Shown here: piece by piece, positions 4,776 to 28,423 of the stretch
Layout of the letters: the number at the start of each line of letters is the position of its first letter
How positions within the stretch are numbered: position 1 is the stretch's first letter
Made by a program: the position numbers and the translations under genes
The notes under the pieces: generated by a model
The model's input: only the letters and a program-made list of their open reading frames with translations
The model's database searches: none
What the model was told of the DNA's origin: nothing
NCBI GenBank assembly: GCA_946184165.1
Contig: CAMHEN010000004.1
Location: 1-49,369, forward strand
Direction of reading: 5' to 3'
From: an uncultured Clostridia bacterium
GTDB lineage: Bacteria > Bacillota > Clostridia > Oscillospirales > Oscillospiraceae
DNA: 49,369 bases

Positions 4776-4924
4776 TTTACTGTGAAAGCGCTGCTTCCAC
4801 AGTAAATATTTGATTCAAGCGCCTGTTTCTCGCCCCTGGCGGGGCAACCGAAACAGATGCGCGAAAATTCCCATGCGCACATGCTTTCATACGGCGTGGA
4901 GCGATTTACGGCGCATGGGAATTT
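4776..4924 (+). ncRNA. Structured three-hairpin element, copy A1
   Basis: This 149-nt block is a close relative of 28276-28423. Three stems are visible: SL1 (TTTACTGTG...CACAGTAAA, 4776-4806), SL2 (GCGCCTGTTTC...GAAACAGATGCGC, 4819-4862, with an inner GCCCC/GGGGC stem), and SL3 (14-bp arms 4865-4878 and 4911-4924 around a 32-nt loop). Compared with copy A2 three base pairs in SL3 and one in SL2 change on both sides together. It lies between the 3' ends of the glycosyltransferase and the YczE-like gene. It could be a structured 3'-UTR RNA or a non-autonomous mobile element. No protein is encoded. Confidence 0.65.
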
Positions 4925-4978
4925 GCTGGAAATCCATAGTCAGCTTTCTGTCAGGGAGCAGTATTAAGAGCATAACAG

Positions 4979-5023
4979 AACCCAGGCGAAATCCGCAGCA
5001 GTACGGATTCGCCCGGGTTTTTC
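4979..5023 (+). terminator. Terminator-like hairpin
   Basis: AACCCAGGCGAAATCCG pairs with CGGATTCGCCCGGGTT (one bulge, one mismatch) and is followed by a T-run. It ends the region downstream of the glycosyltransferase on the plus strand. The remaining 5024-5158 shows nothing recognisable. Confidence 0.65.
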
Positions 5024-5158
5024 AATTTCTCGGAGCTTTTATGCTGCCGCATTCGCCTGTTCTTTCATACCCTTTTGGAGACTGAACACACCATAATACA
5101 GCTTAACAGAACAAAGAGGCCGCTCTCCCTATTTTGGCTCTTCAGCAATTGCGGGAAG

Positions 5159-5818
5159 CTACCGTTGGCACAGCTTTCGGACGGTCTTCTCGATGATGCG
5201 GCCGTTGATGGGAAGAAAGAAGCCCGCCACCGGACCGACAAGGAACATGCAGATCAGCGTCCCGACGCCGGCCTTTCCGCCGAGCAGCACGCCAAAAAGC
5301 AGAAAGCACCCGTCAACCCCGACACGGGTGAGGCTGAAGCGCCAGCGGGCCTTGTCGCTGAGGACAACAGCCACGAGGTCGTTGGGCCCGGTCCCGGCAT
5401 CCGAGCGGATCACGATGGTCATGCCATAGGCGAGGATCACGCAGCCCGACACCAGCATCAGCACCCGGATGGGCAGGGGCGCCCCCGCAAGGGGCTTCTC
5501 CAGCAGGGCCGTAAAAACGTCGATGATCGGCCCGCCGAAGATCATGCAGAGGGCCGTGCCAATCTTGAGATAGCTCCGGTCCACGATAAGCAGGACCAGC
5601 ACGATCAGAAGACTCACCGCCACGTGGACGCGGCCGTGGGTCAGCAGGGCAAGGCCGGTCAGCCGGACAAGACTCCGGTACAGGCCCTGCACCAGCACGT
5701 TGAAGGGGTCTGAGCCCAGGTCCGAGAGCAGAAAGAGCGTCACCCCCAGGTGGGCGATGCAGAGCCCCAGCATCAGAATCACGATGCGGACAGTGTATTC
5801 ACGCAGACTTTTTTTCAT
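5159..5818 (-). CDS. YczE/YitT-type integral membrane protein
   Basis: This 219-residue protein is mostly hydrophobic with about five membrane-spanning segments (near residues 10-30, 60-80, 85-110, 117-137, 165-200). It holds the family pattern LLSDLGSDPFNVLVQGL near the start and its echo SDAGTGPNDLVAVVLS in the middle, an internal repeat typical of the YczE/YyaS/YitT group of bacterial membrane proteins. Their substrate is not established. The start at 5818 is used because MKKSLREYTVR gives the usual cytoplasmic basic end; the purine-rich GGAAAGGA lies somewhat far (about 14 nt) upstream, so translation may be modest. It is followed downstream (in its own direction) by the terminator-like region at 4979-5023. 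It stands 52 nt beyond the 3' end of the AraC gene and could be transcribed together with it. Confidence 0.8.
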   Translation of the reverse strand: MKKSLREYTVRIVILMLGLCIAHLGVTLFLLSDLGSDPFNVLVQGLYRSLVRLTGLALLTHGRVHVAVSLLIVLVLLIVDRSYLKIGTALCMIFGGPIIDVFTALLEKPLAGAPLPIRVLMLVSGCVILAYGMTIVIRSDAGTGPNDLVAVVLSDKARWRFSLTRVGVDGCFLLFGVLLGGKAGVGTLICMFLVGPVAGFFLPINGRIIEKTVRKLCQR

Positions 5819-5869
5819 AGGCGTTCAGAGTCCTTTCCTCTTTTGCAGCAGCGGCCGAGCCGCGCTTTT

Positions 5870-7096
5870 CTACAGCATCTCCCGTGCCTGGAGGGAGCGG
5901 CGGTATTCGGTGGGGGTTGTGCCGTGGACCTTCTTAAAGGTGCGGGTGTAGTAGTTTGCATCGGAGAAGCCGCAGCGCTCCGCGATTTCCGGCATGCTCA
6001 GCGAAGTGCCGCTCAGGAGCTTCAGAGAGCGGCGCACGCGGGTAAGATTGATATAGTCCGTGACAGTCATGCCAACCTCCTTATGAAAGCGGGTCGAGAG
6101 ATAGTTTTTGTTCACGGCATACTTGTTGGCGAGACTCTCAAGCGTCACAGGCTCCATATAGTGGAAGTCCACGAAGTTCAGCACACCCCGCACGATGCCT
6201 GAATAACGCTCTCGCGAATAGGTCTGTACCAGCAGGCAGTAATGCCGGATCATGCGCGGCACCAGGGCCGAGACCTGGGCCTCGTTCTCCGCCCCCTCGA
6301 TCTCACGCAGCAGTTCCCCGCTCAGTCCGTCGATATACAGCGGGTGCACCTCCGCCTGCTGCACGGCCTTGCGCATGGCAGTGCTCGCGGCGATGACCAT
6401 GTCCTTGGCGTTGCGCAGGGGATCGTCCACCCGGGTGTCAAGGGCATAGCCCATAAACAGGTTCTGCTGATGTGTGGCCTCGGAGATATCCCCGCGGCGA
6501 ATGGCGTCGAGCATCTTGGTCTCGGTGGCGTAGCGCTCCTCGATGGCGGTGAAGGGGATAGCGGAGAGGGCGACGGAGGGCTTCTCCTTGACGCGCTCCG
6601 GCCGGTCATAGCGCACATTGTTCACGATCACGTCGGGGTTCCCCAGATAGCGGGAGAGGAAGGTGGAGAACATCTGCTGCCATCCGATCACGTCCCCCAC
6701 CACGGGCACGCGCTTAAATAGCCAGCGGATGGCCTCGATGGCGCTGTCCGAAAGAGTGTTCTGCCGGAGCAGCTCCCGGAAGTTTTCCTCACTGTAGTGG
6801 CGGTAGAGAAAAGGGCCAACGAAGTAGAAGCCGCCCCCCTCGTCCTCCCGCGCGGGGAAGACCAGATAGTGCAGGCCGAACTCGTCCTTATAGTCGATGA
6901 CGCCTTCCTGCGGTACAAGCGCCATCACCGAAACAACCTTGGCGGCGTAGTCATAATTCTCATAGAGCTGGGAGCGGAACTGATAGTCCAGCGCCGACGC
7001 CTCCGGCGCCGTACAGTCGGCGGGCAGCAGCAGGAACTGCACCCGGGACGCGCTGCAGATATCGCGCAGGACATCCCGTATATCCATGACGACCAT
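5870..7096 (-). CDS. AraC-family transcriptional regulator of the glycoside island
   Basis: The last ~100 residues form a double helix-turn-helix AraC DNA-binding domain: VTLESLANKYAVNKNYLSTR is the first and MPEIAERCGFSDANYYTRTF the second, ending FKKVHGTTPTEYRRSL. The N-terminal ~290 residues are a cytoplasmic sensor region without a recognisable cupin; their helical layout with VGPFLYRHYSEENFRELL resembles the sensor part of Gram-positive AraC regulators that lack a sugar-binding barrel. I chose the ATG at 7096 (408 aa) over a TTG 27 nt upstream because CAGG lies 10 nt ahead of it. It is transcribed divergently from the ABC operon, and a perfect 12-bp-arm palindrome overlaps its own promoter, so autoregulation and control of the importer are likely. 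Confidence 0.85.
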   Translation of the reverse strand: MVVMDIRDVLRDICSASRVQFLLLPADCTAPEASALDYQFRSQLYENYDYAAKVVSVMALVPQEGVIDYKDEFGLHYLVFPAREDEGGGFYFVGPFLYRHYSEENFRELLRQNTLSDSAIEAIRWLFKRVPVVGDVIGWQQMFSTFLSRYLGNPDVIVNNVRYDRPERVKEKPSVALSAIPFTAIEERYATETKMLDAIRRGDISEATHQQNLFMGYALDTRVDDPLRNAKDMVIAASTAMRKAVQQAEVHPLYIDGLSGELLREIEGAENEAQVSALVPRMIRHYCLLVQTYSRERYSGIVRGVLNFVDFHYMEPVTLESLANKYAVNKNYLSTRFHKEVGMTVTDYINLTRVRRSLKLLSGTSLSMPEIAERCGFSDANYYTRTFKKVHGTTPTEYRRSLQAREML

Positions 7097-7168
7097 AACA
7101 AATCGACCTGCTTTCCAACGCAAATGTTCGGATTGTGAAAGAAAAAACGGCTTTTGCCCCGAAACAAA

Positions 7169-7202
7169 GTGAATTTCATGCTTATTGTATCATGAAATTC
7201 AC
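7169..7202. promoter_or_regulatory. Palindromic operator candidate in the araC/ABC divergent region
   Basis: GTGAATTTCATG (7169-7180) and CATGAAATTCAC (7191-7202) are exact complements with a 10-nt centre. The site covers the -10 box and most of the spacer of the regulator promoter and lies 51 nt upstream of the -35 box of the ABC promoter, a good position for repression of araC and activation of the operon. Confidence 0.6.
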
Positions 7203-7212
7203 AATAATGCAA
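7184..7212 (-). promoter_or_regulatory. Promoter of the AraC regulator gene
   Basis: Minus strand: TTGCAT (7212-7207), 17-nt spacer, TACAAT (7189-7184). The palindrome 7169-7202 overlaps it. Confidence 0.6.
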
Positions 7213-7253
7213 CAAGATGTGAAAATTGTGCTAAAAGAAGTGAAGTGCGTCAA

Positions 7254-7282
7254 TTGGAGTCCGGGGCATCTTCGTGTAGAAT
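7254..7282 (+). promoter_or_regulatory. Promoter of the ABC importer operon
   Basis: TTGGAG (7254-7259), 17-nt spacer, TAGAAT (7277-7282), about 61 nt before the ATPase start at 7344. Confidence 0.6.
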
Positions 7283-7343
7283 AAGGTCAGTGAAATTCGG
7301 TCCCCGGCAGAGCAATCAAGACTACCCTACGAGGAGGAAGAAT

Positions 7344-8852
7344 ATGGAGAAGGAACCCATCATCGAAGTCCGGCATATGGTCAAGAACTTCGGACCTACC
7401 CGGGCGCTCCGTGATGTGGACGTCAGCTTCTACCGCGGTGAGATCCGTGGTCTCATCGGCGAGAACGGCAGCGGCAAGTCCACCATCACGTCCATCGTCG
7501 CAGGCATGCAGAAGCCGACCAGCGGCGAAATGTTCTACAAGGGCGAGCCCTGGAATCCCGCCAGCATGGTGGACGCCCAGCTTCACGGCATCAGCATGGT
7601 GCTGCAGGAGGCAAACACCATACCCAACTGCACCGTGGCGGAAAACATCTTTGCCGGCCGCTTCAACGAGTTTGCGAAAATGAACAGCTTCCTGAGCATG
7701 AAGAAGGTCAACAAGGCCGCCCAGGAGATTCTGGACAGCTTTGGTCTCAGCCACATCAAGGCCACCGACAGCATCAACAAGTACGGTTTTGAGGACCGCA
7801 AGCTCATCGAGATCGTGCGCTGTGTGTCCGACGAGACCGAGGTCTTCGTCGTTGACGAGACCACCACCGCCCTCTCCCTCGAGGGGCGCCAGCTTCTCTA
7901 CAAGCTCATCCACAAGCTCAAGGACAACGGCAAGAGCGTCATCTTCATCTCCCACGACATGGACGAGATCCTGGAGCAGTGCACCGACCTCACCGTCCTG
8001 CGCGACGGAGAGATCATCGGTCACCTCAACCGCGAAGAGATGGACGCCCCCGGCGCCGAGAAGAAGATCCGCTTCATGATGGTCGGCCGCGAGATCGGCG
8101 ACGCCTACTACCGCGAGGATTACGATTCCTCCCATCTGCCGGAGGTGGCGCTCAAGCTCGACCACATCAGCTTCGGTCCCATCAAAGACTTCTCCCTGGA
8201 GCTGCACAAGGGCGAGATTATCGGCTTCGGCGGCCTGTCCGGCTGTGGTATGCACGAGATCGGCCGCGCTGCCTTCGGGCTTGAGAAGCTCAGCGAGGGC
8301 AAGGTCGTGCGTGAGGGCAAGGAGATCAAGTCCTGCCTCGACGCCATCGAGTCCGGCATCGGCTACATCTCCAAAAACCGCGACACCGAGGCGCTGATCC
8401 TCGAGGGCTCCATCGGTGAGAATATCGTCCTGCCCTCCGTAAACGCCCTCTCCAAGGGAACCTTCGTGAGTCCCAAGGCGGAAAAGAAGCTCGCCGACGG
8501 CGAGATCGACAACTTCCGCATCAAGTGCTACAGCGGCAAGCAGTGGGTCAACACCCTCTCCGGCGGCAACAAGCAGAAGGTCTCCTTCTCCAAGTGGACC
8601 GCCAAGAAGTCCGACGTGCTCATCATGGACTGCCCCACCCGCGGCGTGGACATCGGCGTCAAGCAGTTCATGTACCACGTGATCGCCGAGATGAAGCAGC
8701 AGGGCAAGTCCATCATCCTCATCAGCGAGGAGCTGGGCGAGCTCATCGGCATGGCCGACAAGATCCTCATCATGAAGGACTTTGAGGTCACCCATGAGTT
8801 CATGCGCGACCCCAAGCTCAGCGAGACGGACATCATCGAATACATGATCTAA
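7344..8852 (+). CDS. Sugar ABC importer ATP-binding protein (Mgl/Rbs type, two fused ATPase domains)
   Basis: The start at 7344 follows GAGGAGGAAGAAT. The 502-residue protein has two ATPase domains, as in RbsA/MglA/XylG. Domain 1 has Walker A GENGSGKST, Q-loop LQE, Walker B VFVVDETTT and switch histidine ISHD, but the usual signature (LSVGQQQ) is replaced by KYGFEDRKLIEI. Domain 2 has the degenerate Walker A GLSGCGMHEIG common in this family and a canonical signature LSGGNKQKVSFSKW; its Walker B reads LIMDCPTRGVD, where the usual catalytic Glu is Cys. So one composite ATP site looks intact and the other has lost signature, Walker A and catalytic Glu together. It works at the inner face of the membrane with the two permeases encoded downstream; 13 nt separate it from the first. 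Confidence 0.9.
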   Translation: MEKEPIIEVRHMVKNFGPTRALRDVDVSFYRGEIRGLIGENGSGKSTITSIVAGMQKPTSGEMFYKGEPWNPASMVDAQLHGISMVLQEANTIPNCTVAENIFAGRFNEFAKMNSFLSMKKVNKAAQEILDSFGLSHIKATDSINKYGFEDRKLIEIVRCVSDETEVFVVDETTTALSLEGRQLLYKLIHKLKDNGKSVIFISHDMDEILEQCTDLTVLRDGEIIGHLNREEMDAPGAEKKIRFMMVGREIGDAYYREDYDSSHLPEVALKLDHISFGPIKDFSLELHKGEIIGFGGLSGCGMHEIGRAAFGLEKLSEGKVVREGKEIKSCLDAIESGIGYISKNRDTEALILEGSIGENIVLPSVNALSKGTFVSPKAEKKLADGEIDNFRIKCYSGKQWVNTLSGGNKQKVSFSKWTAKKSDVLIMDCPTRGVDIGVKQFMYHVIAEMKQQGKSIILISEELGELIGMADKILIMKDFEVTHEFMRDPKLSETDIIEYMI

Positions 8853-8865
8853 GGAGGAGAAGAGA

Positions 8866-9870
8866 ATGCCTGAAACTGTCACCTCCCGGCGCACGGACGA
8901 ACGCACCAGCTTTTTCACCTTCGTCAAAAACCACACCATGGATCTGCTGGCCTACGCGGGCCTTGCGGTCATGCTGATCCTCTTCCTCATCTTCAACAGC
9001 GGCCCGCGCCTCATGTATAACTTCTCCGCGGTGGTTCAGGCGGCGGCGGTGTACTCCATCCTCGCCCTCGGCGCCGTGTTCATCTACTCCATGGGCTTCA
9101 TGGACGTATCGCTCGGTCAGCAGGTCGGCGTGTACGTCATCCTCATGATCCTCATCGGCAACAAGATCGGCGGTCCCGCGGGCGTCGTGGTGGGCTTTCT
9201 TGTGACGCTCGCCCTGGCGCTGGCCTGCGGCGCCATCAACGGCGCGGTGTCGATCTTCCTCGGCCTGCCGAGCATCGTGACAAGCCTTTTCCTGATGTTC
9301 TTCTTCACAGGCGCGCAGTACCTGCTGATGGAGTCCACCGGCGAGAACACCATCAAGCTCCTCCAGACCGTCAAGCCCGCCGACCGCAATACCTATACCT
9401 TGATGCTCATCGGCATCATCGCCCTGCTGGCCGTCATCGGCACCTACTTCTTCAACTACACGAAGCTCGGCAAGTACACCCGCGCCATCGGCGCAAACAA
9501 GGTCGCCGCGAAGCAGAGCGGCATCAGCCTTGTCAAGTGGCAGGTGCTGGGCTACATGGCTCTCGGCTTCTGCGCCGCCGTGGCGAGCTTTGTGCTCCTC
9601 ACCCGCACCGGCACTGCCGGCAAGGGCACCGGCTCCGGCTACGCGATGGACATCATGATCTGCCTCATTCTCGGCGGCATGCCCCTCAAGGGCGGCATGA
9701 AGTCCAAAATCTCCTGCGCGCTCGTGGGCGCGTTCACCTACACCCTCCTCTCGAATGTTCTGACCACGATGGGCGTCCCGCTCAACTGGGTCAACTTCGT
9801 CAAAGCCTGCATCTTCCTTGTCATCGTCCTTTTGACCTGTCGGAAGCCTAACGGGGTACTTCCCAGGTAA
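8866..9870 (+). CDS. Sugar ABC importer permease 1 (RbsC/MglC family)
   Basis: A 334-residue integral membrane protein with about 8-10 hydrophobic segments. It contains the loop GFMDVSLGQQVGVYV, the counterpart of the IDLSVG motif that marks BPD_transp_2 permeases of the ribose/galactose class. Towards the C-terminus the stretch DIMICLILGGMPLKGGMKSK corresponds to the conserved cytoplasmic contact with the ATPase. The ATG at 8866 is preceded by AAGGAGGAGAAGAGA. It probably pairs with permease 2 (11139) to form a heterodimeric channel, since both are encoded in one operon and differ in sequence. It is 34 nt from the binding-protein gene. Confidence 0.88.
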   Translation: MPETVTSRRTDERTSFFTFVKNHTMDLLAYAGLAVMLILFLIFNSGPRLMYNFSAVVQAAAVYSILALGAVFIYSMGFMDVSLGQQVGVYVILMILIGNKIGGPAGVVVGFLVTLALALACGAINGAVSIFLGLPSIVTSLFLMFFFTGAQYLLMESTGENTIKLLQTVKPADRNTYTLMLIGIIALLAVIGTYFFNYTKLGKYTRAIGANKVAAKQSGISLVKWQVLGYMALGFCAAVASFVLLTRTGTAGKGTGSGYAMDIMICLILGGMPLKGGMKSKISCALVGAFTYTLLSNVLTTMGVPLNWVNFVKACIFLVIVLLTCRKPNGVLPR

Positions 9871-9904
9871 GCAATACACACACTACATCAAAATGGAGGT
9901 AACT

Positions 9905-11071
9905 ATGAAAAGCACCAAGAAAGTTCTCGCGCTTGTTCTGACCCTCGCGCTCGTCTTCGCGCTGGCCGCCCCGACGGCCATGGCCAAGGCCCGCACCACC
10001 AAGATCGGCGTCGGCCTGTACCAGGATTCCGGCGCCGCCGTCACCGCCGTCAAGGCCTATCTCGGCAGCCTTGAGGACGCCCTGAATGTCAAGTTCACTT
10101 ACACCGTTCTCTCCAACACCGATGAGGCCCAGAACATCACCAAGGTGCAGGAGCTCATCGCCGCCGGCTGTGACGGCATCATCTGCACCATGGACATGGG
10201 CACCGAGGCCATCCTGCAGGAGTGCGCCGACGCGGGCGTCTACCTCGCGGGCTACCTCTGCGACTACGATACCTCCTTCCGCAACAACTATGACAACGTC
10301 TTCAAAAACGAGTTCTTCCTCGGCACCGTCGCCGACGGCGGCTGCGCCGACGAGGCGAGACGCGGCTACGACTTCTTCGACAGCGTCATCGAGTATAACG
10401 AGCGCACCCCCGACGCCCCCATCCGCCATGTCGCGATGACCGTCTTCCCCGCTTTCGCCTTCCCCTACCAGCAGAGCTTCGCCGCCCAGTTTGTCGAGAA
10501 GGTTGAGGAGTACAACGCCGCCAATCCCGACAAGGCCATCGAAGTCGATCCTCTCAGCGATGAGACCGACATCCTCATGTTCCGCCCGATGGACTCCACC
10601 TACTTCAGCAAGCACCCCGGCATTGACGCCATCGTTTCCATCTGCTCCGGCTCCTTCGTGTACCCCACGATGGTGTCCGCCGGTGTGTCCAACACCATGA
10701 AGCTCTTTGCCGCCGGCTACAACGACGGTGACGAGGCCGTGTTCGGCTCTAAGGGCGCCTACCAGATGGAGATCGTGAGCCCTGTTGAGGCCATCACTTA
10801 CCCGCTGGTGCTCCTCCTGAACAAGATCAACGGCGTGGAGTTCCCCGACCAGCCCGCTGAGGCTGAGCGCCGCGGCGTCTCCGTGCTCGTCATCAACTCC
10901 GACGAGGACCTTGCCAAGTTCCAGCACAGCATTTACCTGAGCTTTAAGCCCGAGGATGCCTTCCTCAGCCCCGAGGACGTTGTGGCTCTCACCGCTTACA
11001 ATAACCCCGACGCCACCTACGCCGGTCTGGTTGAGATTCTCAACCACATGACCATCGACGACATCCAGTAA
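9905..11071 (+). CDS. Sugar ABC importer substrate-binding protein (Peripla_BP_4-like), without lipobox
   Basis: The true start is the ATG at 9905, because the ATG at 9893 lies in the GGAGGT ribosome binding site. The 388-residue product has a signal peptide MKSTKKVLALVLTLALVFAL that ends in APTAMA, a signal peptidase I site. It has no Cys in a lipobox, which is unusual for a binding protein of a cell with one membrane, because release would lose it; retention must come from another route if the cell is monoderm. After the signal it has the two-domain binding-protein pattern: KIGVGLYQDSG, then QELIAAGCDGIICTMDMG and the hinge-like VISVCSGSF counterpart AIVSICSGSF. It captures the sugar or glycoside outside and delivers it to the permeases. 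The substrate cannot be read from the sequence; the neighbours suggest a rhamnosylated or mixed glycoside. Confidence 0.85.
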   Translation: MKSTKKVLALVLTLALVFALAAPTAMAKARTTKIGVGLYQDSGAAVTAVKAYLGSLEDALNVKFTYTVLSNTDEAQNITKVQELIAAGCDGIICTMDMGTEAILQECADAGVYLAGYLCDYDTSFRNNYDNVFKNEFFLGTVADGGCADEARRGYDFFDSVIEYNERTPDAPIRHVAMTVFPAFAFPYQQSFAAQFVEKVEEYNAANPDKAIEVDPLSDETDILMFRPMDSTYFSKHPGIDAIVSICSGSFVYPTMVSAGVSNTMKLFAAGYNDGDEAVFGSKGAYQMEIVSPVEAITYPLVLLLNKINGVEFPDQPAEAERRGVSVLVINSDEDLAKFQHSIYLSFKPEDAFLSPEDVVALTAYNNPDATYAGLVEILNHMTIDDIQ

Positions 11072-11087
11072 GCCAACATGAATTGTC

Positions 11088-11111
11088 CCCGGTACCCCTC
11101 GGGGTACCGGG
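11088..11111 (+). repeat. Hairpin between binding-protein and permease 2 genes
   Basis: Exact 11-bp arms CCCGGTACCCC and GGGGTACCGGG with a 2-nt centre, 16 nt after the binding-protein stop. There is no T-run. Such a hairpin can protect the upstream mRNA and let the binding protein be made in excess over the permeases. Confidence 0.65.
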
Positions 11112-11138
11112 AGACACCGACAGTCAGAAGGAGCCACT

Positions 11139-12134: not shown

Positions 12135-12165
12135 CGGGAAGCAAAAAATCCATACCGAAAAAGGT

Positions 12166-12197
12166 GGGAGGTGGCAGGTTTGCCGCCTCCCATTTTT
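12166..12197 (+). terminator. Terminator after the ABC importer operon
   Basis: GGGAGGTGGCA and TGCCGCCTCCC (one G-U pair) with loop GGTT, followed by ATTTTT. Confidence 0.8.
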
Positions 12198-12204
12198 AAT
12201 CAGG

Positions 12205-12221
12205 TGCGAACAAGGTTCGCA
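12205..12221. repeat. Short hairpin TGCGAAC-AAG-GTTCGCA before the rhamnosidase gene
   Basis: Exact 7-bp arms with the same AAG loop and core as the hairpin after the GH2 gene at 20629-20655 (GCGAACAAGGTTCGC is shared). It lies just 5' of a weak -10-like TATATT (12238-12243) and could be an operator or a remnant of the stop-codon hairpin family. Confidence 0.5.
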
Positions 12222-12256
12222 GGCTGTAAATGCCAACTATATTTAGGAGATTGTAT

Positions 12257-17012: not shown

Positions 17013-17016
17013 ACTA

Positions 17017-18372: not shown

Positions 18373-18417
18373 GCGTTCTTTCCAGTTCATGAAAGTCTTC
18401 ACGAAAGAGAGTTGCCT

Positions 18418-20790: not shown

Positions 20791-20844
20791 ACAATTCAAA
20801 CCTTCCGCAATCAACGAACAACATGTTTAAAAGGAGGTCAAGCC

Positions 20845-22593
20845 ATGGTAGATCTGAAAGCGAAGCCCTTTTATCTGAATGATCAGGAGATCCGGTGGGT
20901 GGAGGACACCATTGCCTCCATGCCCCTGGATGAAAAGCTCAGCCAGCTCTTCGTGCTCTTAAAGCCCGTGCCCGGCGTAAACGAGGAGCAGATCAAGACT
21001 CTCATGCAGTCTGCCCGCCCGGGCGGGATGCGCTGGCAGGGCGGCAATAAGGAGACGGTGGCGCGGCAGAACCGCCTCTTCCAGCAATACAGCCGCATCC
21101 CCGTCCTCATCGCCGGCAACTGTGACGACGGCGGCAACGGCGTTCTCCCGAAGGAGGGGACCTTCGTCGCCACCGCGGCGGAGGCCGGCGCGTCCGAGGG
21201 GACCGAGACCGCCTACCGCATCGGCTTCGTGGCTGGGCGCGAGGCCAGCGCCATTGGCGTCAACTGGATGTTCAACCCCGTGGCCGATGTGTACAAAAAC
21301 TGGCGCAACACCATCGTGAACACACGCTCCTTCGGCTCTGACCCCGGGCGCGTGACCGAGTGCGTGCGCGCCTACATCCGCGGCATCAAGGATGCAAACC
21401 CGAACATGGCCTGCACCTGCAAGCACTTCCCCGGCGACGGCTGGGACGAGCTGGACCCCCATATCTCCCCGGCCCATAACGAGGCTTCCGTGGAGGAGTG
21501 GATGGCAAGCTACGGCCTTGTATACAAAACCATGATCGACGAGGGGCTGGAGACTGTCATGACCGGACAGATCAGCCTCCCCGCCTGGAGCCGCAGGGTA
21601 CGCCCCGGCATCCGCAACGAGGAGATCCTGCCCGCCTCTCTCGCCCCCGAGCTTTTGCAGGATCTGCTGCGCGGGGAGCTGGGCTTCAACGGCCTCATCA
21701 TCTCCGACGCCTCCCACATGATCGGCATGGCGGGCGTCATGGCACGCCGGGACGCGGTGCCCAGGGCCATCGCCGCGGGCTGCGACATGTTCCTCTTTGC
21801 CAATGACTTTGAGGAGGATCTGGGCTATCTCCGCGCGGGGTATGAGAGCGGCATCGTCACCGAGGAGCGCCTCTCCGACGCGCTGCACCGCGTCCTCGGG
21901 CTCAAGGCCCATCTCCGGCTCTATGATGACGCCGTGCGCTATCCCGATCCCAGGCTCCTGGACGAGGTCGGCTGCCCGCAGTTCCGGCAGTACACCGCCG
22001 AGGCCGCCGACAGGGGCGTGACCCTTGTAAAGGACACCCGCGCCCTCCTGCCCATCGACCCGAAGGAGAAGAACAGGGCGCTTCTCATCTATGTCCGCTC
22101 CACCCCGAACTCCAAGGGCGACAGCGGCGACGGCGTGCGCGAAAGAATCACGGCGGAATTGGAGCGCGTCGGCTTCACCGTGACCCAGTGCCCCAGCTTC
22201 TATGACCGGGAGAACACCGAGGGCGTCAATCCCATGAACTTCGTGCGCATGATGATGATGGACCGGCGCGAGGACTTCAAGAAGAAGTACGACGTGGTGT
22301 TCGTGTTTGTGAACGTCAAGGGCTACGCCCAGAAGAACGTGGAGCGCCTGAGCTGGTCCAGCGGCCACTCCATGGAGCTGCCCTGGTACACCGAGGAGGT
22401 CCCCACCGTGGGCGTGAGCTTAAACTACACGAACCACCTGGTGGATCTCGCGAACATCCACACCTTCATAAACGCGTACGGGCCAAACACGGAGAACATC
22501 CGCGCGGCGGTCGAGAAGATCGCGGGCCTGAGCGAGTTTCACGGGATTGCGGACGACACGGTCTTTTGCGGCCGCTGGGACACGAGACTATAA
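20845..22593 (+). CDS. Glycoside hydrolase family 3 protein (copy 2)
   Basis: The start follows AAAAGGAGGTCAAGCC. The 582-residue protein is a diverged copy of the one at 15258, with the same length and motif order: LKAKPFYLNDQEIRWVEDT at the N-terminus, CKHFPGDGWDELDPHI near residue 192, and LIISDASHMIGMAGVM holding the likely nucleophile Asp, then a C-terminal half beginning near RALLIYVRSTPNS. In copy 1 the loop is DERDQH, here DELDPH; the family acid/base loop is therefore kept in both but differs in detail, as expected for two substrates or two positions in one substrate. No signal peptide. The stop TAA (22591-22593) is followed at once by TCAAATTGCG, the start of another hairpin element of the kind seen at 20629. 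Confidence 0.88.
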   Translation: MVDLKAKPFYLNDQEIRWVEDTIASMPLDEKLSQLFVLLKPVPGVNEEQIKTLMQSARPGGMRWQGGNKETVARQNRLFQQYSRIPVLIAGNCDDGGNGVLPKEGTFVATAAEAGASEGTETAYRIGFVAGREASAIGVNWMFNPVADVYKNWRNTIVNTRSFGSDPGRVTECVRAYIRGIKDANPNMACTCKHFPGDGWDELDPHISPAHNEASVEEWMASYGLVYKTMIDEGLETVMTGQISLPAWSRRVRPGIRNEEILPASLAPELLQDLLRGELGFNGLIISDASHMIGMAGVMARRDAVPRAIAAGCDMFLFANDFEEDLGYLRAGYESGIVTEERLSDALHRVLGLKAHLRLYDDAVRYPDPRLLDEVGCPQFRQYTAEAADRGVTLVKDTRALLPIDPKEKNRALLIYVRSTPNSKGDSGDGVRERITAELERVGFTVTQCPSFYDRENTEGVNPMNFVRMMMMDRREDFKKKYDVVFVFVNVKGYAQKNVERLSWSSGHSMELPWYTEEVPTVGVSLNYTNHLVDLANIHTFINAYGPNTENIRAAVEKIAGLSEFHGIADDTVFCGRWDTRL

Positions 22594-22700
22594 TCAAATT
22601 GCGTCAGCAGCTTCTAAGGCCCCCTTGCCTAAAAAAGGGGCATAGAGGCGAGTGTGCGCACTGGGGCACTTCCCTTTTTCTAATGGGGGCTTCAGAGGAT
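22594..22700. repeat. Inverted-repeat element between GH3 copy 2 and the HAD gene
   Basis: TCAAATTGCG directly after the stop resembles the left half-stem of the B elements but lacks its partner. It is followed by an imperfect inverted repeat of about 25 nt per arm (22614-22640 AAGGCCCCCTT...AAAAAAGGGG against 22671-22696 CCCTTTTTCTAATGGGGGCTT) enclosing the small palindrome AGTG-TGCG-CACT. The shape is that of a miniature transposable element or a large 3' hairpin. A TATAAT (22740-22745) lies further on without a good -35 box. Confidence 0.5.
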
Positions 22701-22779
22701 TTCTGACTTAAAGCAATACCTGCATACCTTTATCCGCCCATATAATCAGTTTACATAAAACTTGTTTAGGAGAAAGAAC

Positions 22780-23412
22780 ATGAAAGCTGTTATTTTTGAC
22801 CTTGACGGCGTCATTTGCTTCACCGACAAATACCACTATCAGGCGTGGAAGGCGCTGGCGGACCGGCTCGGCATCTACTTTGACGAACAGATCAACAACC
22901 GCCTTCGCGGCGTGAGCCGCATGGCAAGTCTCGACATCGTGCTTGAGCGGGCAGAGCGCAGCTACTCCCAGGAGGAGAAGGATGCCTTCGCCGCAGAGAA
23001 GAACGCGACCTATGTGGAGCTTTTGCAGCAGATGAACCCCCGCGACCTCTCGGACGAGGTGCGCGAGACGCTCAACGCTCTGCGCGAGGGGGGCTACAAG
23101 CTCGCCATCGGCTCGAGCAGTAAGAATACCAAACTCATTCTCTCCCGCCTCGGTCTCGGCGATTTCTTCGACGCCATCTCCGACGGGACGAACATCACCC
23201 ACTCCAAGCCCGACCCGGAAGTCTTCCTCAAAGCCGCCGAGATGCTGGCTCTTGACCCTGCCGAGTGCCTCGTGGTGGAGGACGCCAAGGCCGGTATCCA
23301 GGCGGCCCACGCGGGCGGCTTTCAAAGCGCCGGGATCGGCGAGGCCTCCGAGCATCCCAACTGCACCTATCCTATCGCGCACTTCGGCGATTTGAAAAAA
23401 ATCTTACTGTAA
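22780..23412 (+). CDS. pgmB: Beta-phosphoglucomutase-like HAD phosphatase/mutase
   Basis: The ATG at 22780 follows TTTAGGAGAAAGAAC. The 210-residue product begins MKAVIFDLDGVICFTDKYHY, the HAD motif I with the D-x-D pair and the cap-domain start (YHYQAWKAL) characteristic of beta-phosphoglucomutase. RGVSRMASLDIVL is the substrate-contact segment of that subgroup; motif II is IGSSSKNT, and motif IV is VVEDAKAGIQAA. Beta-PGM turns beta-glucose 1-phosphate into glucose 6-phosphate and normally partners with a glycoside phosphorylase of family GH65 or similar. No such phosphorylase gene is in the window, so its supplier may lie elsewhere. It has a 12-nt gap to the next HAD gene and is likely co-transcribed with it. 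Confidence 0.85.
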   Translation: MKAVIFDLDGVICFTDKYHYQAWKALADRLGIYFDEQINNRLRGVSRMASLDIVLERAERSYSQEEKDAFAAEKNATYVELLQQMNPRDLSDEVRETLNALREGGYKLAIGSSSKNTKLILSRLGLGDFFDAISDGTNITHSKPDPEVFLKAAEMLALDPAECLVVEDAKAGIQAAHAGGFQSAGIGEASEHPNCTYPIAHFGDLKKILL

Positions 23413-23424
23413 GGAGTGTATTTC

Positions 23425-24261
23425 ATGTCTGCGCTGGACGATTTCAAGAAGGCCAAAAAGCTCTGTGTCTGCGTCGATTCCGACGGCTGCGCCATGGACA
23501 CCATGAACATCAAGCACATCCGCTGCTTCGGCCCCTGCATGGTGGACGAGTGGAGGCTCGATGCGTGGCGCGAGGCGATCCTCGAACGCTGGAACGTCAT
23601 CAACCTCTACTCCGGCACCCGCGGCATCAACCGCTTCAAGGGTCTCGCCATGGCCCTTGGGGAGATCAACACCCAATACACCCCCATTGCGGGCGTGGAG
23701 GCGCTGATCGACTGGGCGGACAACGCCCCCGAGCTCTCCAACGATGCCATTAGAAAAGAGCTCGGCCGCGACCCCATCTTCCAGAAGGCCCTCAACTGGA
23801 GCATTGCGGTCAACAAAGCCATCACCGAGCTTCCCCAGGAGGAGGTCAGGCCCTTCGGCCACGTGCGCGAGGCTCTCGCGGCGGCGCACAAAGTCGCCGA
23901 CGTGGTAGTGGTCTCCAGTGCGAACCCCGAGGCGGTGCGCGAGGAGTGGAAGCGTTTCGGCCTAATCGAGGACGTGGACCTCCTCTGCACCCAGGAGATG
24001 GGCAGCAAGGCTTACTGCATAGCCCGGCTCTGCGAGAAGGGTTACGGGCTTGAGAACATCCTCATGTGCGGCGACGCCCCGGGCGACGACCAGGCCGCCG
24101 CATCCAACGGCGTGCTGTATTACCCCATCCTCGTAAGCCACGAGAACGAGAGCTGGCAGCTCTTTCTGGACGAGGCGCTCGGGCGCTTCGCCGACGGCAG
24201 CTACGCCGGGGCCTATCAGGCAGAGCGCCGCGCGGCCTTCAACCGCAACCTGGGGCTTTGA
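23425..24261 (+). CDS. HAD-superfamily hydrolase, unknown substrate
   Basis: The ATG at 23425 follows TAAGGAGTGTATTTC, in preference to an ATG 9 nt upstream. The 278-residue protein has HAD motif I as VCVDSDGCAMDTM (nucleophile and general acid Asp), motif II as VVVVSSANPEAV, motif III Lys in GSKAYC, and motif IV as MCGDAPGDDQAA. A large insert with CFGPCMVDEW after motif I forms the cap and is unlike beta-PGM, so this is a different subgroup. It probably dephosphorylates a small sugar phosphate or related metabolite. The gene lies between pgmB (12 nt) and the nucleoside hydrolase gene (12 nt), clearly in the same transcript. Confidence 0.82.
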   Translation: MSALDDFKKAKKLCVCVDSDGCAMDTMNIKHIRCFGPCMVDEWRLDAWREAILERWNVINLYSGTRGINRFKGLAMALGEINTQYTPIAGVEALIDWADNAPELSNDAIRKELGRDPIFQKALNWSIAVNKAITELPQEEVRPFGHVREALAAAHKVADVVVVSSANPEAVREEWKRFGLIEDVDLLCTQEMGSKAYCIARLCEKGYGLENILMCGDAPGDDQAAASNGVLYYPILVSHENESWQLFLDEALGRFADGSYAGAYQAERRAAFNRNLGL

Positions 24262-24273
24262 GGAGAGCGGGAT

Positions 24274-25206
24274 ATGAAGCGTGAAGCTCTCCTCTCCCGC
24301 ATGGGGATGCGCCTGCCGATGCATAAGCAGATCCGCGTTATCATCTCCAGCGATGTGGCGAACGAGGCGGACGACCCGTACGCCATCGTCCACCAGCTCC
24401 TCACGCCCCTGTTCGACGTGCGCGGCATTATCGCCGCCCATTTTGAGAGCAAGGCCCCCGGCACCGAGACCACCATGGAAAAGAGCTTTCAAGAATTATG
24501 TAAACTCATGAAAGCCATTGACATTGACGACGTGCCCGCGCTGCGCGGCTGCACTGCTCCCCTGCGGGATGTGCATGACACACCGACGAGCGAAGGCGTG
24601 GACTTTCTCATCCGGGAAGCCCTGCGGGACGATCCGCGCCCCCTCTATGTGACGGCCCAGGGCGCGCTGTCCGATATTGCCGCGGCCCTCAACCGCTGCC
24701 CGGAGATCGGGGAGAGGATGACCGTGGTCTGGATCGGCGGCTTCCCATACCCTGCGGGCGGGGCGGAGTTCAATCTCATGCAGGATGTGGCGGCGGGACG
24801 CGTGCTTATGGCGTCCAAAGCGGCGGTGTGGCAGCTTCCGGTGAATGTCTACAGCACCATGGAGGTCACCATGGCGGAGCTTGCCTCACGCGTCCGCCCC
24901 TGCGGCGCAGTGGGCCGCTATCTCTATGACGAGATGGAGGCCTACAATCTCCGTAATGACGACGCCCCGGGTCTTCGCAACGGGGAAAACTGGTGCCTCG
25001 GCGATTCCCCGGTGGTGGGGGCGCTGCTGGGCTGCGGCTGGCGCGGCAATTTCCATATGGAGACCGCCCCGCTCATCTCTGACGACATGCGCTATCTCCC
25101 CAACCCCGGCGGAAAAGAGATCCGCATTTATGATTACGTGGACGTTCGCTTCATTCTCGAAGACATGTATGCGAAGCTCAGGCTCTGCAGTGGGCCCGAA
25201 ACATAA
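24274..25206 (+). CDS. Nucleoside hydrolase family protein
   Basis: A 310-residue protein with the N-terminal pattern RVIISSDVANEADDPYAIV, the calcium-binding Asp cluster (D...DD) of inosine-uridine-preferring nucleoside hydrolases. RPLYVTAQGALSDIAAALN and TVVWIGGFPYPAGGAEFN are the further active-site strands, and NENWCL-like NGENWCLGDSP holds the downstream acidic residue. Classic members cut the N-glycosidic bond of ribonucleosides. Here it lies between a HAD hydrolase and GH43, so it may act on a ribosyl or furanosyl O-glycoside or a glycosylated nucleoside; this is inference. The start follows GAGGAGAGCGGGAT. It is 14 nt from the GH43 gene. Confidence 0.85.
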   Translation: MKREALLSRMGMRLPMHKQIRVIISSDVANEADDPYAIVHQLLTPLFDVRGIIAAHFESKAPGTETTMEKSFQELCKLMKAIDIDDVPALRGCTAPLRDVHDTPTSEGVDFLIREALRDDPRPLYVTAQGALSDIAAALNRCPEIGERMTVVWIGGFPYPAGGAEFNLMQDVAAGRVLMASKAAVWQLPVNVYSTMEVTMAELASRVRPCGAVGRYLYDEMEAYNLRNDDAPGLRNGENWCLGDSPVVGALLGCGWRGNFHMETAPLISDDMRYLPNPGGKEIRIYDYVDVRFILEDMYAKLRLCSGPET

Positions 25207-25220
25207 CGGAGGAATCAACC

Positions 25221-26720
25221 ATGGAGCAGATTTATAATCCCTATCTCCCCCTGTGGGAGCATATCCCGGACGGGGAGCCCCATCTCTTCGGAGACCGGGT
25301 GTATATCTACGGCTCCCACGATGTGGCAGGCGGCACCGCCTACTGCGAGGACCACTACTGTGTCTGGTCCGCGCCGAAGGATAACCTGCGGGACTGGCGC
25401 TGCGACGGTGTCAGCTACCGCCGCGATCAGGACCCCAGCAACGCTGCCGACGACAAACAGCTCTGGGCTCCGGACGTAACCCGGGGGCCGGACGGCCGCT
25501 ACTATCTCTACTACTGTTTCAGCTTTTATCCCGAGGTCGGCGTCGCCGTGAGCGACAGACCCGAGGGGCCTTTTGCATTCTACGGCCATGTCCACTATCC
25601 ACCCCACATTCTCGGCGGGAAGACCGTACAGGAGGGCATGGTGTTCGACCCTGCGGTGCTCACGGATGACGACGGGCGCGTTTTTCTCTACTACGGTTTC
25701 GCCCCCGCCTGCGAGAAGGAATTCAAATTCCCGGAGCTTACGGAGGAGGATCTCGCCGCAATGCAGGAGGAGCAGCGTGCGCGCATCGAGGCGATGAGGG
25801 CCCTGCCCATGGGCGAGAACTCCATGGTCATGGAGCTGGAGTCCGACATGCTCACCGCGAAGGAGGAGCCGCGCGTACTCATCCCCGGCGGACGCCACAC
25901 CGCAGGCACGGGCTTTGAGGGCCACGGCTTTTTTGAGGCTTCCTCTATCCGCAAGATAAACGGCAAATACTACTTTGTCTATTCCAGCCACAAGAGCCAT
26001 GAGCTCTGCTACGCCGTGAGCGACAGGCCGGACGGCGGTTTCGTCTACGGCGGCACCATCGTCTCCAACGGCGACGTCGGCCTCAAGGGGCGCAGCGACC
26101 CGGTTTATCCCCTGGGCAACAACCACGGCGGGCTTGTAGAAGTGGACGGTCAGCTCTATATCTTCTACCACCGCCAGACAAACGGCACCGAGTTTTCGCG
26201 TCAGGGCTGCGCCGAGCGCGTGGAGCTCAAGGCTGACGGCAGTATCCCTCAGGTGGAGATCACGAGCTGCGGGCTCAACGGCGCGCCGCTAAACGCCTCC
26301 GGCAGCTACCCCGCCGCAATCGTCTGCCATCTGACAGACCCGAGCGTGACCAATGTCATCGACTACGGCGACCCGAAGATGAAGGAGCAGATCCGCGTCA
26401 CGGAGCGCCAGAACGTGAGCTTTGTCACCGGCATCCGGGACGGTGCGGTGCTCGGCTGGAAGTATTTCGACTTTCTAAACGCGAGCTTCCTGGGCCTTGA
26501 GCTCCGCGGCAGCCTTGACGGGACCATCACCATCTCCCACAATATCAGGGGGCTCAACCCCATCGGAGCCGTCGAGGTGCACGGGTCTGTGGAGGACTGG
26601 TCCATGGCGCTGCTGCCCATCACGCCGAAGAAGGGCACGCGTCCTCTCTACCTCCGCTATGACGGCAAGGGCGAATGGGAGCTCAAGACGCTCTGCTTCT
26701 TCTCGGACTACGCCCTCTGA
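25221..26720 (+). CDS. Glycoside hydrolase family 43 protein
   Basis: The ATG at 25221 follows GGAGGAATCAACC. The 499-residue enzyme has the five-bladed propeller of GH43: a catalytic base Asp near the start in HIPDGEPHLFGDRVYIYGSHD, the transition-state Asp in LWAPDVTRGPDGRYYLYY, and the acid Glu in FFEASSIRKINGKYYFVYSS. The last ~130 residues (about 365-499) form a jelly-roll-like beta module that may bind sugar. Enzymes of this family release alpha-L-arabinofuranose or beta-xylose, and some act on galactan. No signal peptide, so the substrate is an imported oligosaccharide. With GH78, GH2 and two GH3 enzymes it covers the sugars of pectin side chains or plant glycosides. It is last in the hydrolase series. 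Confidence 0.9.
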   Translation: MEQIYNPYLPLWEHIPDGEPHLFGDRVYIYGSHDVAGGTAYCEDHYCVWSAPKDNLRDWRCDGVSYRRDQDPSNAADDKQLWAPDVTRGPDGRYYLYYCFSFYPEVGVAVSDRPEGPFAFYGHVHYPPHILGGKTVQEGMVFDPAVLTDDDGRVFLYYGFAPACEKEFKFPELTEEDLAAMQEEQRARIEAMRALPMGENSMVMELESDMLTAKEEPRVLIPGGRHTAGTGFEGHGFFEASSIRKINGKYYFVYSSHKSHELCYAVSDRPDGGFVYGGTIVSNGDVGLKGRSDPVYPLGNNHGGLVEVDGQLYIFYHRQTNGTEFSRQGCAERVELKADGSIPQVEITSCGLNGAPLNASGSYPAAIVCHLTDPSVTNVIDYGDPKMKEQIRVTERQNVSFVTGIRDGAVLGWKYFDFLNASFLGLELRGSLDGTITISHNIRGLNPIGAVEVHGSVEDWSMALLPITPKKGTRPLYLRYDGKGEWELKTLCFFSDYAL

Positions 26721-26841
26721 GTCAAGCTGCGCTGCTTTTGCAGGGTGCTTCGGCAGCAGCACAAACGCTTTCCCAGCGCTGTTGATCCGGATTGCTTCCG
26801 CAGTTTCCATCTTGCCGCAGTCCCTTGTTTTTCGATTGCGC

Positions 26842-26870
26842 TTGACAGAATCCGGCGTTTTTATTATGAT
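26842..26870 (+). promoter_or_regulatory. Strong promoter of the sugar-kinase gene
   Basis: TTGACA (26842-26847), 17-nt spacer, TATGAT (26865-26870), 65 nt before the ATG at 26936. This shows the kinase can be expressed without the upstream operon. The rest of 26721-26841 holds nothing recognisable. Confidence 0.7.
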
Positions 26871-26935
26871 AGTCCGCAGCGCGAGCAGGACCGCCCGTGT
26901 CTTTCCGAATAATCTGATGGAAAGAGGTGAACTGT

Positions 26936-28063
26936 ATGGAGAGCAATTCCGGCGAAAACATCCGGGAAAAGCTCGCTTATATCTGCAGGGAGTTTCGCAT
27001 TCCGGGGGAACTGATCCTGTACCGCTTGATCCCCACCGGGCACATCAATACCGCCTATTACGTCGCCCTCTACGACGGAAACGAGGTACGGCAGTTTCTG
27101 GTCCAGAAGGTCAACTGGTATGTCTTCAAGGAACCGGTCAGTATGATGCACAACATTGATCTTATCACGAAGCATATCATGAGCAAGGAGCGCACCCTCG
27201 AACGCCGCAGAAGACTGCACTTTCATCACACGGCCGAGGGCAACAACTATGTGATCCTCGGAGAGGGCGAAAACGCCGAGTTCTGGCGGCTCTATAACTT
27301 CATCGAGAACGCCGTCTCCTTCGAAACCGCCGACGGCAACGCTGAGGTACTGCGCATGTCGGGCAAGGCCTTCGGCAAGTTTAACCGCCAGCTCCAGGAC
27401 TTTGACGCCTCCCTGCTGGTGGAATCCATCCCGCATTTTCATGACACGGTCTACCGGATGAACAGCTTCTTCGACATCGTCGGCGAGGATCCCCTCGGCC
27501 GGGTGAAAGACGCAGAGGAGGAGATCGCCCTCATCCGCGAGTACCGGGACTTTGCAGGGACGCTCTGTCGGCAGATCGACCGGGGAGAGCTGCCGATCCG
27601 CGTCACCCACAACGACACCAAGACCAACAACATTCTCTTTGACCGGGACACCCTGGACCCCCTTGTGATCATCGACCTTGACACCTGCATGCCGGGTCTC
27701 GCCTGCTATGACTTTGGCGACACGATTCGATTTGCGGCCTGTACCGCAGAGGAGGACGAGAAAGATTGCAGCCGGATGAAGCTCGACCTCAAGCTCTTCC
27801 GCGCCTACACGGAGGGCTATCTCGCCGAGACGCGGGAGTTCCTCACCGACGCCGAGCGTGACTCTCTCGCAACGGGCGCCGCCGTCATCACGCTGGAGCT
27901 TGCGTCCCGCTTCCTCGGGGATTATCTTATGGGGGACAAGTACTTCCGCATCGACTACCCCGAGCACAACCTGGTCCGCGCCAGGGCGCAGCTTGCGCTG
28001 TTCCGGGACATGATGCTGCATATGGACGAAATGCGTGCGATCATCCGGGAGTGCTCCTGCTGA
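26936..28063 (+). CDS. APH-fold phosphotransferase, N-acetylhexosamine 1-kinase-like
   Basis: The ATG at 26936 is used because AAAGAGG lies 8 nt before it; a GTG three codons upstream overlaps that site. The 375-residue protein has the aminoglycoside phosphotransferase fold: catalytic loop THNDTKTNNILFD (the HxDxxxxN pattern with Asp and Asn) and metal-binding VIIDLDTCMPG, followed by DFGDTIRFAA. The N-terminal half starts with YRLIPTGHINTAYYV, the nucleotide-binding strand set. This arrangement is like N-acetylhexosamine 1-kinase (NahK/LnpB), which phosphorylates GlcNAc or GalNAc at C1, so the enzyme likely acts on a free sugar or amino sugar. It lies last in the island but has its own promoter and terminator. 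Confidence 0.82.
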   Translation: MESNSGENIREKLAYICREFRIPGELILYRLIPTGHINTAYYVALYDGNEVRQFLVQKVNWYVFKEPVSMMHNIDLITKHIMSKERTLERRRRLHFHHTAEGNNYVILGEGENAEFWRLYNFIENAVSFETADGNAEVLRMSGKAFGKFNRQLQDFDASLLVESIPHFHDTVYRMNSFFDIVGEDPLGRVKDAEEEIALIREYRDFAGTLCRQIDRGELPIRVTHNDTKTNNILFDRDTLDPLVIIDLDTCMPGLACYDFGDTIRFAACTAEEDEKDCSRMKLDLKLFRAYTEGYLAETREFLTDAERDSLATGAAVITLELASRFLGDYLMGDKYFRIDYPEHNLVRARAQLALFRDMMLHMDEMRAIIRECSC

Positions 28064-28080
28064 ATACATAGCATCGTGCA

Positions 28081-28120
28081 AAAAAAGCGGATCCGCAAGG
28101 CATTGCGGATCCGCTTTTTT
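28081..28120. terminator. Bidirectional terminator after the kinase gene
   Basis: Exact 17-bp arms (AAAAAAGCGGATCCGCA and its complement) with a 6-nt loop AGGCAT. T-runs lie on both strands, so it can also stop transcripts from the minus-strand genes beyond. Confidence 0.85.
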
Positions 28121-28132
28121 ATTGCATTTTCG

Positions 28133-28275
28133 GTCATACTGGAACCTCATGAAAACCTTTAATCGCTTAAAGGTTTTCATAGCGCCCAAAGGCGCGTAGA
28201 GGATCTGCATGAGACGTGTTTTCAGCGTTTTGCGCTGAAAACGCCGCAGAAGCTGCGGCGTTCTTGATCAAAGAA
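28133..28275. repeat. Hairpin array beside element A2
   Basis: Within 143 nt at least four near-perfect hairpins occur in a row: TGAAAACCTTT...AAAGGTTTTCA, GCGCCCAAAGGCGC, GTTTTCAGCG...CGCTGAAAAC and GCCGCAGAAGCTGCGGC. TCATACTGG at its left end recurs inverted at 4761-4770 near copy A1. No coding sequence is present. Confidence 0.6.
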
Positions 28276-28423
28276 TTTACTGTGAAAGCTCCGCTTCCAC
28301 AGTAAAGATTGATCCAAGCGCCTGTTTCTCGCCGCTCACGCGGCAACCGAAACAGATGCGAAAAACACCCATGCGTTATGAGCTTTCATGCGTTGTGGAG
28401 CGGATTGCGACGCATGGGTGTTT
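28276..28423 (+). ncRNA. Structured three-hairpin element, copy A2
   Basis: The counterpart of 4776-4924 with the same three stems and almost the same length (148 nt). SL1 is 28276-28306, SL2 28318-28360, SL3 arms are 28363-28376 and 28410-28423. In SL3 the arms AAACACCCATGCGT/ACGCATGGGTGTTT replace AAATTCCCATGCGC/GCGCATGGGAATTT, so three pairs are changed on both sides. In SL2 the inner stem GCCGC/GCGGC replaces GCCCC/GGGGC. The SL3 loop keeps GCTTTCAT and GTGGAGCG. On the opposite strand the element ends at the stop codon of the 5-formyl-THF cyclo-ligase gene. Confidence 0.65.

Follow-up and report, generated by a model that had tools for sequence, protein, structure and literature searches.

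Two elements of a hairpin family in one contig

We analysed a 49,369-nucleotide stretch of DNA (the window) from an uncultured Clostridia bacterium of the Oscillospiraceae (assembly GCA_946184165.1, contig CAMHEN010000004.1, positions 1 to 49,369 of the forward strand; our contig C4), which belongs to an incomplete genome of 2.26 Mb in 165 contigs (67% complete). Two blocks on the plus strand, A1 (4776–4924) and A2 (28276–28423), each lie between convergent open reading frames (ORFs). A1 is flanked by a glycosyltransferase ORF (3380–4549, plus strand) and a YitT-like ORF (5159–5818, minus strand), and A2 by an APH-like ORF (26927–28063, plus) and a 5-FTHF cyclo-ligase ORF (28439–29212, minus). 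Both belong to type I of a mobile, multi-copy family of structured elements with several classes of target; in two of its other subfamilies, sub-a and sub-b, the right end of the element supplies a replacement for the expression signal at which it has inserted.

An earlier reading made from the letters alone (the sequence-only reading) had described three stems shared by the two blocks, and these were present when the blocks were re-read. In A1, a divergent copy, hairpin S1 spans 4776–4806, with a first TTT that represents the target side, the central hairpin S2 spans 4819–4862 (internal loop UC/AACC, 3' bulge AT), and S3 spans 4865–4924 with a TTT at its end. The corresponding hairpins of A2, one of nine near-identical full copies in the genome of the window, lie at 28276–28306, 28319–28360 and 28363–28423. 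S2 is common to all subfamilies; S1 and S3 occupy the positions of two hairpins, H1 and H3, that flank S2 and vary by subfamily. Between A1 and A2, three pairs of stem 3 are altered on both sides (T-A to C-G, T-A to A-T and C-G to T-A) and in the inner stem 2 a single pair is flipped from C-G to G-C, as had been reported.

Single-strand DNA folding of A1 and A2 gave the three stems, at z = -6.6 and -5.8, respectively, and in neither case was any of 200 shuffled sequences as stable. The same test on the minus strands gave z = -6.5 and -7.2. We then aligned A1 and A2 with 11 hand-chosen relatives (n = 13; L026, L031, L050 and L150 were excluded as degenerate, duplicate or cut). Paired cells amounted to 93.0%, compared with 83.7% after shuffling of the 3' letters, and 47 cells were changed on both sides, compared with 16.0 ± 2.9 in the shuffles. 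The number of further pair types showed no excess (25 vs 25.0). When the structures were slid by 1–3 columns, pairing fell to 32–44%.

RNA helices normally accept G-U far better than A-C. The type I alignment contained 9 G-T and 9 C-A combinations, and 2310 cells of S2 contained 14 G-T and 22 C-A, so that neither set has an excess of G-T over C-A. What is selected therefore seems to be DNA structure or strict complementarity, and the pair statistics favour DNA over RNA structure. A 3'-untranslated or small RNA, which the sequence-only reading had considered, is not upheld as the primary function in view of this lack of preference and of the diverse positions and neighbour genes of the copies.

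In hairpin S2 the apical stem is followed by an internal loop UC/AACC, which a C-G pair closes, and then by the middle stem, a 3' bulge of 2 nt and the outer stem. Of 158 instances whose middle stem has at least 5 bp, 134 have one of exactly 7 bp and a core of 22 nt. Since the patterns by which copies were collected fix the loop letters TC/AACC, the closing C-G, three apical pairs and part of the middle stem, the near-invariance of these positions proves nothing. For the same reason covariation was counted over the six pairs that the scan pattern leaves free. In 154 distinct copies (four chance viral 50-mers were left out) 873 of the 924 cells were paired, compared with a shuffled mean of 599 and maximum of 630; the last pair of the middle stem was C-G in 69, G-C in 62 and A-T in 8. 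The search of the window's own and related genomes thus turned what had been noticed as a pair into a family with covariation at S2. As to the loop parts that had been called conserved, the 3' side of S2 (CAACCGAAACAG, minus its variable stem letters) is indeed common across subfamilies, whereas GCTTTCAT and GTGGAGCG belong to S3 of close type I copies.

When genome contigs were scanned for the S2 pattern, at least 115 stretches in other genomes matched. The 80 titles of the listed matches name Oscillospiraceae, Ruminococcaceae, Clostridiales, Anaerofilum, Oscillibacter, Pseudoflavonifractor and other Clostridia. The exact patterns were found in 2 of 391 sampled genomes of the class, both in the family of the window's genome, and in 16 of 250 sampled genomes of that family, with 1–17 copies per carrier genome. 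As a DNA query, the type I core matched 15 of 60 genomes, its own included, all of one genus. In plasmid and phage collections the A2 core had no match. In IMG/VR the strict S2 pattern was not found, and a relaxed one gave eight stretches, seven of which were, by eye, other sequence without the stems and one of which (L278) had the architecture. The Rfam 15 covariance models gave no match at gathering score in the window and none in a set of 12 pattern loci (out of the 115) that represented sub-a to sub-d; a permissive search around A1 gave only matches far below threshold. We found no described family like this one in the literature, which is a weak negative as coverage of subscription papers was poor.

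A rough automatic sorting of 176 copies assigned 90 to sub-a, 23 to type I, 22 to sub-b, 14 to sub-c, 5 to sub-d and 22 to none of these. Type I is marked by CTGTGAAAGC.., sub-a by arms with −10 boxes, sub-b by an H3 with a ribosome-binding site and sub-c by GTAAACG... Sub-a also occurs in tandem arrays with units of 110–113 nt (L113, L134, L136), which is consistent with new elements entering where the end of an earlier one provides the target. A sub-c-like hairpin (TCGTAAACG...GCGTTTACTA) lies without S2 at the −10 position 5' of miaB in G035 (L366) and is perhaps a remnant or a solo arm.

Within its own genome, A2 as a query recovered eight full-length copies at 100% and one at 99% identity, along with a 96-nt shortened copy, the divergent A1 and L011, and two weaker or partial matches. 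The central motif of S2, CTCGCCNCT...GGCAACCG, had at least 17 exact matches there, nine of which lie in the near-identical full elements, and its reversed control none. These counts are lower bounds, as three contigs (L016–L018) end inside the repeat. TTT stands at the left of 12 of 12 type I copies and at the right of 11, the exception (L012) having lost its right end. One locus of G000:C45 (L013/L020/L021) is a mosaic in which S1-, S2- and S3-like hairpins are repeated in changed order and orientation, apparently as nested or rearranged elements.

Insertion sites and replaced signals

A2 is itself nested in a second repeat that the sequence-only reading had missed. This outer element (ATACTGGAACC...ATAGTAT; 28136–28439, plus strand) contains a palindrome with A2 at its apex. 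The left part of this element (ATACTRGAACC...TAGTAT) has 39 matches in the genome, including fragments and hairpin halves. Among 20 copies recognised by their left-end pattern, 4 contain the type I core and 16 do not (3 of these 16 are cut by contig ends); L002, L003 and L006 have the core and lack the full left end. An empty apex reads GATTAAATCT-TTT-AATCAG (L059 and others), or GATTAAAAGA-TTT-AATC on the opposite strand, and the filled, intact L008, read along the core, shows GATTAAAAGA-TTT-ACTG...GTG-TTT-AATCAG. Hence, TTT is single in the empty site and stands on both sides of the core in the filled one. The core sits at this apex in both orientations (L006 and L008 vs L002, L007 and L009). 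The outer element forms a multi-hairpin family of its own (ATACTA...TAGTAT; L052–L081 besides the window copy), and in all 15 copies with both ends recognised the left-adjacent base equals the right-adjacent base, a 1-bp direct repeat.

The mobility that the sequence-only reading had offered as one option is supported by the nine near-identical full copies in one genome and by three pairs of occupied and empty sites in related genomes. At fmt, a sub-b copy lies between the ribosome-binding site and the start codon, at the def/fmt overlap. The empty site of G700 reads ..GGAGGAAGC followed directly by ATG, and the filled site of G581, whose Fmt is 98.7% identical, reads ..GGAGGAAG, the element and then ATG. 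Only G581 has S2 here; 16 of the 17 genomes of the genus (G700 and 15 more) lack it. The upstream def frame ends at a TGA overlapping the start codon when the site is empty and at a TGA inside the element when it is filled. At the miaB promoter, a sub-a copy follows the −10 box directly in G027, and G708 and G000 are empty; ATGCTAAAATA, present once in the empty site, stands on both sides of the element as an 11-bp direct repeat. Between clpP and clpX, a type I copy has entered G022 at a TTTT behind a terminator-like hairpin, its right end being ATT rather than TTT, and the site is empty in G031 (95%). The comparison of 30 clpX loci (of which L338 was uninformative) and 30 miaB loci yielded one S2 in each set. 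At seven loci of the genus of G498, S2 is present in three close relatives and in none of four distant ones, which are too divergent to align.

Sub-b elements end in a new ribosome-binding site and sub-a elements in a new −10 box, and the pairs at the def/fmt overlap and the miaB promoter display these replacement signals directly. In 19 of 21 sub-b copies exactly 2 nt separate the right end from the start codon, in one copy 1 nt, and one copy was unscored; this set was picked by eye from H3 and omits L159, which has lost its right end, L252, whose start codon comes immediately after GGTCATA, and L278. The genes downstream encode unrelated proteins. A purine-rich ribosome-binding site was seen by eye just 5' of the left end in the copies that were read. 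In 11 of 23 copies a long upstream frame ends at or near the left end, by a host stop at that end (L120, L160, L205, L216, L278), by a stop slightly 5' of it (L116, L147, one copy of L149) or by the element's own TGA (L170, L173, L252); the remaining 12 showed no such frame, or one that ran on. The ATG of S2 is in frame in some copies, and sub-b was considered as a short-peptide gene; this was dropped since neither frame nor ATG is kept (by eye). The copy in L278, on an IMG/VR contig (1–4481) with three serine recombinase genes in a row, lies between the first two of them and has, by eye, a ribosome-binding site on one side and a TTG start codon on the other. We read that recombinase as one more host gene rather than as the mobilising enzyme.

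For sub-a, 47 copies with a TGN-hexamer on both sides were compared, orthologous ones included (e.g. L135, L246, L303). A −35 box (at least four of six matches, a criterion that shuffled upstream sequence satisfies in 11%) stands 16–18 bp 5' of the left hexamer in 20 copies and of the right hexamer in none. The left −10 box is therefore that of the host promoter in many sub-a copies, and the right one is a substitute.

Several copies have outer hairpin arms that match the host target. In sub-b, pairing of the internal arm continues with host bases before and in the start codon, with a total of 48 compared with a mean of 24.6 and a maximum of 45 in permutations (0 of 2000 reached it; 20 of 22 copies were scored, and shared ancestry remains in the permutations). 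In the miaB copy the internal arm ATATTTTAGCAT is complementary to the unusual −10 box of that promoter, TGCTAAAAT, which the empty relatives also have; it fits the promoter variant and not the subfamily consensus, in which the arm is TTATACCA. In sub-c the match between arm and host flank is, by eye, about 9–11 nt in L196 and L133 and about 4–6 nt in others. Two sub-a copies of G474 (L256 and L269) lie at promoters with the rare −10 box TAGAAT; the arms match on both sides in one and only on the left in the other.

Mode of movement and competing explanations

Our preferred reading, on which we regard the balance as even, is that A1 and A2 are non-autonomous mobile elements that move as single-stranded hairpins, find their targets by base pairing and work much as IS200/IS605 or repetitive extragenic palindromic (REP) elements do, with a different enzyme. 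S2 would be the site that this enzyme reads, one enzyme serving all subfamilies, and the outer arms of H1 on the left and H3 on the right would be, or match, the host target. Insertion would occur 3' of a short target, namely TTT for type I, TAA or TA by the start codon for sub-b and a TATAATA-like −10 box for sub-a; because the element ends in the same or a similar motif, the target motif would then stand on both sides. A single-stranded DNA intermediate is presumed, whose internal arms would choose the target by pairing with it in the manner of the IS608 guide sequences, and DNA opened by RNA polymerase may be preferred. The three target classes could have such opened DNA in common, as promoter bubble, terminator and pause sites at start codons; polymerase pausing at translation starts is described in the accessible part of one study (PMC5234074).

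Several observations weigh against this reading. The ends are inconsistent over the three empty sites, with an 11-bp repeat at miaB, no repeat and one changed base at fmt, and an inexact TTT at clpX. Four of the 20 sub-b copies that were scored (L120, L131, L147, L214) show no extension of the arm into host sequence. The left and right −10 hexamers of sub-a agree in 30 of 47 copies, a modest excess over permutations (mean 22.9, maximum 30). Clustering of the ORFs at the 115 retrieved S2 loci revealed no gene at a fixed place beside S2 in the 40 largest clusters. Finally, the Y1 transposase domain Y1_Tnp (PF01797) was not found in 11 of 17 S2-bearing genomes, eight of which are 94–100% complete (G581, G027, G503, G589, G474, G679, G624, G018); G581, with its recent insertion at fmt, is 100% complete.

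We infer mobilisation by a protein that reads hairpins, as the sequence-only reading had suggested; no enzyme was found in these searches. The element contains no gene. The largest ORF cluster around S2, ABC-type ATPases by eye, covers 15 loci at distances from 0 to more than 3 kb, and the next ones cover 7, 6 and fewer. In an earlier sample, 17 of 37 genomes had PF01797; it was not found in G000 (67% complete). Among 48 PF01797 loci scanned for S2, only L088 had one, about 120 nt downstream of an IS200-like tnpA remnant without a start, and it was set aside as a chance neighbour.

A rather unlikely alternative retains the mobile element and changes the origin of its arms. H1 and H3 would be copied from the target during insertion, by fold-back and target-templated synthesis, instead of choosing it by pairing. 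The miaB arm that follows its own promoter and the long sub-c matches in L196 and L133 speak for such copying. Against it, the left and right ends often differ and the nine near-identical type I copies keep one arm sequence.

We consider it improbable that the family is a cis-acting regulatory RNA leader, riboswitch-like or sequestering the ribosome-binding site, that was selected and spread as a module. Such a leader would explain why H3 of sub-b pairs with the ribosome-binding site, with the start codon at its nearly fixed distance of 2 nt, and why sub-a faces the downstream gene in 56 cases vs 13 (a crude ORF count, in which 28 of 90 copies were counted inside some ORF). However, the downstream genes are unrelated, type I is mixed in its orientation to its neighbours (10 vs 8), the pair statistics and Rfam searches give no sign of an RNA, and the fmt site is occupied in one member and empty in 16 congeners.

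Very improbable, too, is a REP-type element moved by a resident TnpA-REP (RAYT, REP-associated tyrosine transposase). The single hairpin with conserved mismatches is reminiscent of REP, and in an early subset RAYT-like genes were present in 5 of 7 core-positive vs 2–3 of 16 core-negative congeners, although the 'negative' G015 has S2. This link was not borne out in the later set of 17 carriers and 16 other genomes, in which Y1 genes were overall unlinked to S2 (6 of 17 carriers vs 8 of 16 others; one of the others, G031, has the type I core by DNA search). Moreover, S2 lies near one of 48 Y1 loci only, and a REP-type GT[AG]G stands at the 5' foot in only 3 of 167 distinct S2 copies. RAYT-like genes were noted at L092, L095, L096 and L097; GDPCGRP- or GRPP-type stretches in some frame of the first three perhaps reflect a REP inside the gene.

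The least probable alternative is a classical miniature inverted-repeat transposable element, which a DDE transposase would cut and paste while duplicating the target site. The 11-bp repeat at miaB and the 3-bp TTT at the outer element would speak for it, but the length of the repeat varies by site (0, 3, 11) and A1 and A2 have no terminal inverted repeats (3 and 2 of 15 positions, below the shuffled means of 3.5 and 3.9).

Small repeats in bacteria are generally regarded as random insertions between genes; here, the subfamilies of one family specialise in different expression signals. Annotation is affected too, since in these bacteria some of the promoters and ribosome-binding sites derive from the element. 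It also becomes possible to test how such an element locates a start codon or a −10 box, and which non-Y1 enzyme could move it. Possibly, though this is doubtful, the family is a mobile element of a new class, which would rely on base pairing to get into DNA that the polymerase has opened (promoter bubble, translation-start pause or terminator T-tract), would land on a few bases of a signal and would rebuild that signal with its own end. If so, insertions into promoters and operon junctions would be nearly silent because the end of the element restores the signal, and the family would constitute a natural targetable insertion system with an enzyme recognising S2.

Comparison with known systems

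A small non-autonomous mobile repeat is in itself of an ordinary kind. What sets this family apart is the rigid hairpin, the target-matching arms, the replacement of signals and the lack of a transposase in our searches. BOX, RUP and SPRITE of streptococci, ERIC and Correia are likewise small, structured, interspersed repeats that can affect genes. In the part of the source available to us BOX is modular, such repeats are considered probably parasitic, and none is described as bringing a replacement signal to a −10 box or to the space that separates a ribosome-binding site from its start codon (PMC3049150; ERIC and Correia compared by description).

REP sequences and their mosaic arrangements (BIMEs), with TnpA-REP, share with the present family the intergenic location, a hairpin with conserved mismatches and tandem arrays, and REP is recognised as a single strand, as far as the accessible parts of two sources go (PMC8266576, PMC6006769). 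The S2 element differs in its defined ends, its flanking target-matching hairpins, the lack of a GTAG foot, its 1–17 copies per carrier genome by exact patterns and the lack of RAYT linkage in our genome sets.

The IS200/IS605 elements IS608 and ISDra2, in the accessible part of PMC5934647, have hairpins near their ends, insert 3' of a short target that is kept at the left flank, and contain internal guides that pair with the motif to be cleaved (guide/cleavage pairs). TTT of type I and TAA/TA of sub-b fit this target rule, and the 11-bp repeat at miaB could be such a kept target or a true duplication. Complementary arms are present as well; they differ from the guides in their position relative to the hairpin and may be target-copied. 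Unlike IS200/IS605, the S2 element is about 110–150 nt long and geneless, has one central common hairpin instead of two subterminal ones, and occurs in 17 tested carriers of which 11 yielded no Y1 transposase. The guide sequences of IS608, which pair with the target, can be extended by design to 12–17 nt (same source, in part); the native pairing of the S2 element covers 3 to about 12 nt, and its end motif resembles the target.

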